Part shown: positions 54,052-55,913 of the stretch, one piece after another
How the letters are laid out: the number at the start of each line of letters is the position of its first letter
Position numbering within the stretch: position 1 is the stretch's first letter
The notes under the pieces: model-generated
Told to the model about the DNA's origin: nothing
What the model saw: only the letters and a program-made list of their open reading frames with translations
The model's database searches: none
Program-made: the position numbers and the translations under genes
Assembly (NCBI GenBank): GCA_903884235.1
Contig: CAISEB010000012.1
Location: forward strand, 62,001 to 126,000
Length of the DNA: 64,000 nt
Direction of reading: 5' to 3'
From: an uncultured Pseudomonadota bacterium
GTDB lineage: Bacteria > Pseudomonadota > Gammaproteobacteria > Steroidobacterales > Steroidobacteraceae

Positions 54052-54398
54052 TGGTGGGCCCGCTGGGACTCGAACCCAGAACCAAGGGATTCACTCTGCC
54101 CCACGGTTTCCCGCGGGAGTGGACTATCTCTTCACCCTCGCCGTGCGGTCGCGGCGGTGGGGTGCGGGACGCTCTTGCCTGTCATCAAGGGCGCTCGGGC
54201 CGAAGCCCAGCCCCCAGGTAGTCTCTGCACCGTCCGGCGGTGTACCGCCGGCTAGGCTCAGGGTTGCCAGCGGACGGCGGCGTCCGGTGAGGGTTCCCTG
54301 AATTCATCCCGTCCACTTCATGCGTTACCGCATGAAGGCACCTTTCCGACCCCGTCGGATCGATGAGTCCCCTGCTCTAACCATTGAGCTACAGGCCC
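54052..54398 (-). tRNA. tRNA-Ile(CAU) split by a group I intron
   Basis: The exons are 54363-54398 (5' half, 36 nt) and 54052-54091 (3' half, 40 nt). Joined, they give a 76-nt tRNA with encoded CCA: acceptor GGGCCTG/CGGGCCC (one U-G pair), D stem GCTC/GAGC, anticodon stem GGGGA/TCCCT with loop CTCATAA, and T stem CTGGG/CCCAG with loop TTCGAGT. The anticodon CAT, plus near-identity to E. coli minor isoleucine tRNA across the D arm and anticodon loop, makes this the AUA-reading tRNA-Ile2, whose C34 must become lysidine. It is not tRNA-Met. The 271-nt intron follows U36. A weak hairpin (54026-54042) lies just downstream. Confidence 0.96.
54092..54362 (-). other. Group I self-splicing intron (IC3-like) in tRNA-Ile(CAU)
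   Basis: 271 nt, no open reading frame. Helices read on the minus strand: P1 from exon CAT (54365-54363) with guide GTG (54341-54339), including a terminal U-G pair; P2 arms CTTCATGCG and CGCATGAAG around a GTAA tetraloop (54316-54337); P4 TCAGGG (54301-54296) with CCCTGA (54263-54258); P5 CGGACG/CGTCCG; P6 CCGGCGG/CCGCCGG; P7 GACTA (54223-54219) with TAGTC (54126-54122); P9 arms CCCGCGG and CCGTGGG around GAAA (54100-54117). The last base is G (54092), the required omega-G. The site and layout match the 205-nt Azoarcus tRNA-Ile ribozyme. The extra length lies mainly between the P7 strands (with a GGGC-TTCG-GCCC hairpin) and in a P1 extension. Confidence 0.95.
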
Positions 54399-54479: not shown

Positions 54480-55913
54480 ATGATCGCCATTTTCGTCGTC
54501 GCCGGCGTCGTCGCCGGCCTGCTCGGCTTCGTCATCGGCCGCCAGAGCCAGGCCGCCCGCGACCAGGCGCTGCTCCTCGCCGAATCGCGCGAGCGCAGTG
54601 CCCTCGAGTCCGCCGCCGCGGCGAGCCGGGCCCGCCAGGAGGCGGCCGAAGCCGCCCTCGCCGCCCGCGAACGGGAGATCGCCGACCTTCGCTCCGAGCA
54701 GCGCAGCCTCGGCGAATCCCGGCGCGAACTCGCCACCCGCCTCGAGACCCAGGAAAAGGCGCTCGCCGAGCAGCGTGCGCTGCTCGAGAGCGCCCAGGCA
54801 CGGCTCACCGATACCTTCAAGGCGCTCGCGACGGATTCGCTGCAGGCCAACAACCAGCAGTTCATCGAGCTCGCCCGCCTGCAGTTCGAATCGATGCAGC
54901 AGGGGGCGAAGGGCGACCTCGAGAAGCGCCAGCAGTCGATCGCGGAACTCGTGGCGCCCGTCCGCGAGTCCCTCGACAAGGTGCTCGGCCAGATCGGCAC
55001 GATCGAGAAGGAACGGGCCGGCGCCTATGGGGCGCTGATGACCCAGGTCGAATCGCTCGCCTCCGGGCAGCTGGACCTGAAGCGCGAGACTGGCAACCTC
55101 GTCGGCGCGCTGCGCAGGCCCAACGTCCGGGGCCGCTGGGGCGAACTGCAGCTGAAGCGCGTCGTCGAGCTCGCCGGGATGCTGGAGCACGTCGATTTCA
55201 CCGAGCAGGTGCACCTGGAGGGCGAGGAGGGCGCCCTGCGCCCCGACCTCGTCGTACGGCTGCCGGGCGGCAAGAGCCTCGTCATCGATGCAAAGGCCCC
55301 GCTTGCCGCGTACCTGGAGTCGCTCGAAGCCACCGACGAGGCGACGCGCGGCGCGAAGATGGCGGACCATGCGCGGCAGATCCGGGATCACATCACCAAG
55401 CTCTCGAGCAAGGCCTACTGGGCGCAGCTCGACACCCCGGAATTCGTCGTCCTATTCATTCCCGGCGAAGCCTTCTACAGCGCGGCCCTCGAACAGGACC
55501 CGTCGCTGATCGAGATTGGCATCAGCCAGCGCGTGATCCTCGCGACGCCGACCACGCTGATCGCGCTGCTGCGCACCGTCGCCTACGGCTGGCGCCAGGA
55601 ATCCCTGGCCGACAACGCCCGCCGGATCGCCGCGCTCGGCAAGGATCTCTACGATCGGCTGCAGAAGATGGCCGAGCTGTGGGCGCGGATGGGCAAGGGG
55701 CTGACCGGGGCGGTTTCCGCCTACAACGATGCCGTCGGCTCGCTCGAGTCACGCCTGATGCCGGCCGCCCGCAAGTTCCGCGACCTCGACGTCGGCGCGG
55801 AGGGCGACGAGGTCCGGGAACTCGCGCAGATCGAGACGCGCCCCCGCGCCATCCAAGCCGAGGACCTGCAGCTGCCGCCACCGCCGCCCGGTCCGCAGGG
55901 CGATCCGCACTGA
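54480..55913 (+). CDS. rmuC: DNA recombination protein RmuC
   Basis: 477 residues. An N-terminal membrane helix (IFVVAGVVAGLLGFVIG) leads into a coiled coil of about 120 residues rich in Ala, Glu and Arg. The RmuC nuclease-fold domain follows (about 165-430: VGALRRPNVRGRWGELQLKRVVELAGM, RPDLVVRLPGGKSLVIDAKAPL, VLFIPGEAFYSAALEQDPSLIE, VILATPTTLIALLRTVAYGWRQE). RmuC limits inversions at short inverted repeats in E. coli. The start is ATG 54480 at the membrane helix; the frame is open upstream but overlaps the tRNA. A proline-rich tail ends the protein. Confidence 0.95.
   Translation: MIAIFVVAGVVAGLLGFVIGRQSQAARDQALLLAESRERSALESAAAASRARQEAAEAALAAREREIADLRSEQRSLGESRRELATRLETQEKALAEQRALLESAQARLTDTFKALATDSLQANNQQFIELARLQFESMQQGAKGDLEKRQQSIAELVAPVRESLDKVLGQIGTIEKERAGAYGALMTQVESLASGQLDLKRETGNLVGALRRPNVRGRWGELQLKRVVELAGMLEHVDFTEQVHLEGEEGALRPDLVVRLPGGKSLVIDAKAPLAAYLESLEATDEATRGAKMADHARQIRDHITKLSSKAYWAQLDTPEFVVLFIPGEAFYSAALEQDPSLIEIGISQRVILATPTTLIALLRTVAYGWRQESLADNARRIAALGKDLYDRLQKMAELWARMGKGLTGAVSAYNDAVGSLESRLMPAARKFRDLDVGAEGDEVRELAQIETRPRAIQAEDLQLPPPPPGPQGDPH

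Follow-up and report, generated by a model that had tools for sequence, protein, structure and literature searches.

An interrupted tRNA-Ile(CAU) gene beside rmuC

On the minus strand of the window, by which we mean the whole analysed stretch of 64,000 nt, positions 54398..54052 hold two halves of a tRNA gene that flank an insert of 271 nt. The 5′ exon (36 nt, 54363..54398) covers tRNA positions 1-36 and ends in the anticodon CAU, the group I intron (271 nt, 54092..54362) begins with C and ends with the omega-G, and the 3′ exon (40 nt, 54052..54091) runs from A37 to the encoded CCA; all three lie on the minus strand and were found where an earlier note on this DNA had placed them. When the exons were joined by script, a complete 76-nt cloverleaf formed by both exons was obtained, with the anticodon CAU and the encoded CCA, and with the cut falling between U36 and A37. 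ARAGORN labelled the joined exons as Met(cat); from identity features of its sequence, we take the tRNA to be tRNA-Ile and not tRNA-Met. On the genomic sequence, the same program at default settings reported no tRNA in the window, bearing out the earlier remark that an ordinary finder could miss the gene; when introns were allowed, the gene was detected, with the cut two bases off and the label Gln(ctg). The initial observation of a split tRNA-Ile(CAU) gene with a group I intron is confirmed.

No endonuclease-sized open reading frame was found in the intron, the longest stop-free stretch on either strand being 69 codons, and promoter and terminator scans found nothing. The divergent neighbour, rmuC (54480..55913, plus strand; PF02646, E 4.2e-102), lies outside the intron. 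It was also found in the analysed flank of 8/13 intron-bearing congeners, and the other five, with at most about 440 bases of flank available, gave no match. This adjacency fits vertical descent within the genus, without proving it.

The insert is a group I intron with a conserved fold

The insert was matched by the Rfam model RF00028 at 54357..54100 over the full length of the model (positions 1-253 of 253; 47.5 bits, E 5.3e-11), and no other match was found elsewhere in the genome at E ≤ 10, this intron being the sole one. The RF00028 check proposed in the earlier note gave a divided answer: by E-value the match stands, and at the curated gathering threshold (50 bits) there is none, so that a default search comes back empty because the score sits 2.5 bits below the cut-off.

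The fold was assessed in an alignment of 21 introns, chosen for spread among the 38 complete tRNA-Ile introns of the source genome and its relatives; L088, an intron of another type, was excluded together with 16 more, and the P3/P7 pseudoknot was entered by hand into a structure of 83 pairs. Across these 21 introns, 94.3% of cells were paired and 39/83 pairs had changed on both sides. None of 500 shuffles matched the observed structure on any of five measures of pairing or covariation, and sliding the partner strands cut the pairing to 35-44%. RNAalifold independently recovered P2, P3, P4, P5, P6, P8, P9.0 and P9, together with a helix between P7 and P3.

Read from its 5′ end, with all coordinates on the minus strand, the intron first has a P1 extension hairpin, UCCGAC/GUCGGA (54345..54359), which was already described in the earlier note and is weakly borne out here, with letters in 9/21 sequences and 73.6% of cells paired. 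It is followed by the internal guide GGUG (54339..54342) and by P2 with a GUAA tetraloop (54316..54337), in which 8/9 pairs had changed on both sides. The 5′ strand of P3 (54305..54311) leads into P4-P5 with P5a (54258..54301) and P6-P6a (54229..54252); P5a covaries (74% of cells paired), and 5/5 pairs of P6a had changed on both sides. Next come the 5′ strand of P7, the guanosine-binding helix (54219..54223, invariant), a P7.1 element of 41 nt between P7 and P3, formed by CCUG/CAGG with inner helices (54178..54218), the 3′ strand of P3 (54165..54171), P8 (54133..54164) and the 3′ strand of P7 (54122..54126). Towards the 3′ end lie P9 with a GAAA tetraloop (54100..54117; 6/7 pairs changed on both sides) and the 3′ strand of P9.0, AGUG, which includes the omega-G (54092..54095) and pairs with CACU at 54121..54118 (2/4 pairs changed on both sides). 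P3 and P7 were paired in 98.6% and 100% of cells of the 21 sequences, respectively, and both hardly vary. Since P3, P4, P5 and P7 are nearly invariant, covariation backs the core less than the periphery, and the core rests on conservation.

The group I hallmarks, a U-G wobble at the 5′ splice site in P1 and a terminal G, are present, as are the other elements first picked out by reading the sequence, namely the GUG guide followed by CC, P2 with its GTAA loop and P9 with its GAAA loop. A group I intron at the bond 36|37 is borne out by the full-length RF00028 match and the complete cloverleaf after joining. The intron is a genuine group I intron, and its fold is conserved in its homologues.

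P7.1 accounts for most of the additional length

The length of the intron had been attributed to a GC-rich P8 region. This explanation was dropped because the P7.1 helix appeared in the alignment, and the extra length is largely made up of the 41-nt P7.1 (54218..54178) and the P1 hairpin. The inner pairs of P7.1 covary in the 21-intron alignment. P7.1 was found in 37/38 complete introns of the source genome and its relatives (L053 counted by eye), the exception being L088; its presence in relatives outside the source genus rules out a peculiarity of that genus. Among the 122 tRNA-Ile introns collected, a strict P7.1 expression matched 97, nine formed an Azoarcus-like group without P7.1, and the other 16 lie on the P7.1 side of the tree described below, where the hairpin is there in the segments inspected by eye.

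With regard to subgroup, IA is marked by P7.1 together with P7.2; in the alignment P7.1 is clear and a separate P7.2 was not identified. Subgroup IC3 is marked by the lack of a P7.1/7.2 extension, which does not describe this intron, an argument weakened by the observation, made by eye, that 8/10 tRNA-Arg(CCU) introns on the Azoarcus, IC3-like side have extra sequence after P7 at the place of P7.1. Because of these inserts, the tree was given more weight than the P7.1 helix alone.

The only tRNA-Ile(CAU) gene found and the decoding of AUA

A tRNA model search of the source genome returned 40 tRNAs over the cut-off. Only two other tRNAs with the anticodon CAU were among them, and these look, from their sequence features, like the initiator and the elongator tRNA-Met. 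A second intact tRNA-Ile(CAU), which the earlier note had named, together with lack of expression of the present copy, as an observation that would speak against its reading, was not found in the 95%-complete draft, nor did the tRNA model search find a tRNA-Ile(UAU) in the genome. The draft consists of 59 contigs, and tRNAs for Trp, Tyr, Thr(GGT) and Gly(TCC) were also not found in it; a second tRNA-Ile(CAU) may therefore be unassembled. The genome encodes a TilS-family protein (133 bits against a cut-off of 93.6), and the interrupted gene has the features of a tRNA-Ile2, that is, a CAU tRNA distinct from both Met tRNAs in a genome with TilS. In 34 window ORFs picked by GC3, AUA made up 2 of 519 Ile codons; with AUA so rare in the window, the demand for tRNA-Ile(CAU) should be small.

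For comparison across genomes, a set of 118 was used, made up of the window's own genome and 117 relatives. A continuous tRNA-Ile(CAU) was searched for by a pattern with at most three mismatches, which a diverged copy would escape. The pattern matched in 69/118 genomes, 51 of them with a CAU match and 18, by reading, only with tRNA-Lys(CUU). An interrupted tRNA-Ile(CAU) was found in 39 of the 118 genomes (the window's own included), a continuous one in 51, both in 0 and neither in 28.

Distribution among relatives and other genomes

At E ≤ 1e-4, RF00028 gave 61 matches in 53 of the 118 genomes, and their flanks assigned 39 to tRNA-Ile(CAU), 11 to tRNA-Leu(UAA), one to tRNA-Lys(CUU), two to the tmRNA T-loop and eight to 23S rRNA. 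The genomes with a tRNA-Ile(CAU) intron that scores over the RF00028 cut-off numbered 33 of 39, and for one of the 39 introns (L063) the contig ends before the 3′ exon is reached. Within the genus, the tRNA-Ile intron was found in 13/14 other genomes; in the fourteenth (G012, 83% complete), neither the intron nor a continuous gene was seen. In an even sample of the class, with the window's own genome included, a strict form of the junction was present in 22/369 genomes, which is a lower bound. Plasmid and phage collections gave no nucleotide-level match to the intron, a search that distant relatives would escape.

The other group I introns of the relatives include those in the tmRNA T-loop of two genomes (L099, L104), which are of a known kind, and those in 23S rRNA (L080, L052, L048, L075, L077, L083, L084). 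The match of L080 spans 651 bases and seems to hold an open reading frame, and L052 has two 23S introns in tandem. The tRNA-Lys(CUU) intron (L051, genome G086) is a 216-nt group I intron at 36|37 (match 1501-1721), and its genome has two continuous tRNA-Ile(CAU) matches.

A scan of named genomes with a 3′-junction pattern found at least 120 loci. Of the 122 matches listed, 97 were resolved, and the 25 without both exons resolved were left out of later counts. The 97 resolved matches listed comprise 84 introns in tRNA-Ile(CAU), 10 in tRNA-Arg(CCU), two in tRNA-Arg(UCU) and one in tRNA-Thr(UGU). Among the matches listed, tRNA-Ile introns occur in Dyella, Lysobacter, Luteimonas, Steroidobacter, Woeseiaceae and many other Gammaproteobacteria; Betaproteobacteria, Planctomycetota, an Opitutia MAG, an Elusimicrobia MAG and a MAG of candidate division FCPU426 are also among them. 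The intron of L184 (Actinomycetes bacterium OFTM18) groups with gammaproteobacterial ones, and its contig may be misbinned.

Several single loci deserve record. The tRNA-Thr(UGU) gene of L137 (Proteobacteria bacterium TL1-5.bin26) contains a group I intron of 242 nt at 36|37 with the guide GCA, and the tRNA-Arg(UCU) genes of L121 (Chloroflexi CFX4) and L192 (Rhodothermaceae) likewise contain group I introns at 36|37. In each of two Burkholderiaceae records, L149 and L204, a single stretch contains two intron 3′ junctions. At L106, L116, L130, L172, L199, L204 and L223, the tRNA-Ile gene with its Azoarcus-like intron is preceded, about 200 bases upstream, by another tRNA-Ile 5′ half, which stops at CAU and continues into other sequence; this half could be a partial duplicate or a scar left by another element.

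The guide sequence follows the anticodon in several tRNAs

In the window's intron, the anticodon CAU has the guide GUG as its pairing partner, with U36-G as a wobble, and the preceding G pairs with intron C1. Among the matches listed, the guide is GGG in 10/10 tRNA-Arg(CCU) introns and GCA in the tRNA-Thr(UGU) intron. In the tRNA-Lys(CUU) intron of L051 it is, by eye, GAG. In both tRNA-Arg(UCU) introns among the matches listed, the position where the guide should lie does not have the exact triplet, which turned up only elsewhere, and for that reason they give the rule no support. Across several tRNAs, the guide sequence follows the anticodon. The base that precedes the guide pairs with intron base 1; read from intron base 1, this pair was C-G in 109/113 introns of the P7.1 lineage, the four exceptions being one A-U, two U-G and one case in which the motif search fell on the wrong GTG, and A-U in 9/9 Azoarcus-like introns.

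Two apparent intron lineages at one bond

In a tree of 147 introns, the P7.1 side comprised 115 of them and the side of the Azoarcus-like, tRNA-Leu and tRNA-Arg introns the other 32 (SH-aLRT 99). A careful tree of 66 of these introns, with the P7.1 columns removed, kept this split (93/97), and for the same 66 introns a single clade of all tRNA-Ile introns was rejected (p-AU 0.0064), a test to be read with the limit that an ancestral tRNA-Ile intron moving to other tRNAs also gives non-monophyly. After six 23S and two tmRNA introns were added, a branch (97/97) separated the Azoarcus/Leu/Arg set from the window's intron. The program marked several long branches as unsure, and with the 23S and tmRNA introns included the P7.1 rows do not form one clade; no single origin of the P7.1 line is therefore established. 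The nine Azoarcus-like tRNA-Ile introns (198-224 nt) fall with the tRNA-Leu and tRNA-Arg introns, among which the reference rows are taken by us to be IC3 from their architecture and the literature. Membership of IC3 would mean that an intron shares with the tRNA-Leu(UAA), tRNA-Arg and Azoarcus-like introns an ancestor that other introns do not have, and the trees do not place the window's intron in this way.

The earlier note had regarded the intron as an Azoarcus-type IC3 intron that is merely longer. This would account for its having the same tRNA, the same bond, a GUG guide with CC after it and GNRA loops on P2 and P9, as in Azoarcus, and the tRNA-Arg(CCU) introns show that the Azoarcus side, too, can have an insert where P7.1 lies. 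Nevertheless, we consider this assignment improbable, because P7.1, which is absent from the Azoarcus-like tRNA-Ile introns, is present and covaries, and because the window's intron lies outside their clade, with the nine Azoarcus-like tRNA-Ile introns on the opposite side of the 97/97 branch; the rejection of one tRNA-Ile clade points the same way. In PMC4498298, the Azoarcus ribozyme is described without such an extension.

Given that one clade of tRNA-Ile introns is rejected and that the window's intron falls outside the Azoarcus clade, one bond appears to hold two lineages. As a tentative extension, which we hold to be quite possible if somewhat short of probable, the identical bond of tRNA-Ile(CAU) may have been colonised both by the Azoarcus line and by a second group I lineage, which bears P7.1. 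The P7.1 line, without an endonuclease in the window's copy, would then have been kept in a gammaproteobacterial genus, often beside rmuC, and retargeted to tRNA-Lys(CUU) and tRNA-Thr(UGU) via changes of the guide.

Proposed splicing pathway

From the features described above, we consider it highly likely that the group I intron, which looks live and sits in the sole tRNA-Ile(CAU) gene detected, splices itself and that the tRNA is then lysidine-modified; the window's intron is very probably functional. Splicing itself, its guanosine dependence and its order relative to the lysidine and t6A modifications are what we infer from the sequence. The transcribed intron would fold into P3-P9 plus the P7.1 extension, and the guide GGUG would pair with the anticodon CAU and intron C1, so that the U36-G wobble comes to lie at the 5′ splice site. 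This site would be attacked by a free guanosine bound in P7, U36 would next attack the 3′ site, after the terminal G, and ligation would rebuild the anticodon loop CUCAUAA, in which TilS would make lysidine at C34, such that the tRNA reads AUA. This pathway leaves room for a protein cofactor that aids the folding of the intron.

The rarity of AUA in the window could also be understood if a decayed, non-splicing intron sat in a pseudogene and AUA were dispensable or read by another tRNA. That this is so appears very unlikely, as joining the exons still gives an entire cloverleaf with CCA, 21 introns have the fold in common and 13/14 congeners have kept the intron, while the genome encodes a TilS-family protein and the search for a tRNA-Ile(UAU) found none. 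Removal of the insert by a protein endonuclease, and not by itself, found no support and is hardly credible with the group I core helices and the 5′ splice-site pairing present.

Significance

Group I introns interrupt the same tRNA-Ile(CAU) in many Gammaproteobacteria and some Planctomycetes, and since the tRNA finder used here misses or mislabels the window's gene, such genomes can seem to be without AUA decoding. With two lineages at one bond, nature offers a test of the ways in which introns reach a site and stay there, and the P7.1 line offers small ribozymes for comparison with that of Azoarcus. If the reading of two colonisations is true, persistence at a tRNA hardly needed by high-GC genomes would make slow splicing affordable, and AUA decoding could be limited by the speed of the ribozyme.

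Comparison with known systems

The statement of the earlier note that Azoarcus provides the sole known bacterial model at this site is wrong, as group I introns in the tRNA-Ile2 of Acidovorax and Burkholderia are reported with tRNAscan-SE 2.0 (PMC8450103). The passages on them give neither sequence nor subgroup, and these introns are likened to the window's intron by their host tRNA only. The comamonad introns L110 and L194 (Variovorax) lie on the window intron's side of the tree, and Comamonadaceae relatives of the window's intron may already be in published tallies. The bacterial groups that a review names for tRNA group I introns are the cyanobacteria and the alpha- and beta-proteobacteria (PMC4033280); in the open-access literature, no description of gammaproteobacterial or P7.1-bearing tRNA introns was found, which is a weak negative.

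An extension between P7 and P3 is likewise known from the T4 td intron (IA2): by the description in PMC4498298, the td ribozyme resembles the Azoarcus ribozyme except for its P7.1/7.2 extension at this place. The td intron has another host gene, and in the window's intron only P7.1 with nested inner helices was recognised. The tmRNA T-loop introns are a kind described in PMC11915505; in two of them, L099 and L104, additional sequence likewise separates P7 from P3. They differ from the window's intron in host RNA and site, and they stand on a long branch whose position is unsure.

The closest point of reference is the IC3 intron in the pre-tRNA-Ile(CAU) of Azoarcus BH72, which was compared here through look-alikes such as L129 and L088. 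Both introns share the host tRNA, the bond 36|37, the GUG guide, the GNRA loops of P2 and P9 and the lack of an open reading frame. In contrast, of the two introns only the window's has P7.1 between P7 and P3 and the P1 hairpin; its base 1 is a C that pairs with G, whereas in the Azoarcus-like introns an A pairs with U, and it lies on the other side of a supported branch. The intron lineage looks distinct from the textbook Azoarcus intron, although the site and the kind of intron are already known.
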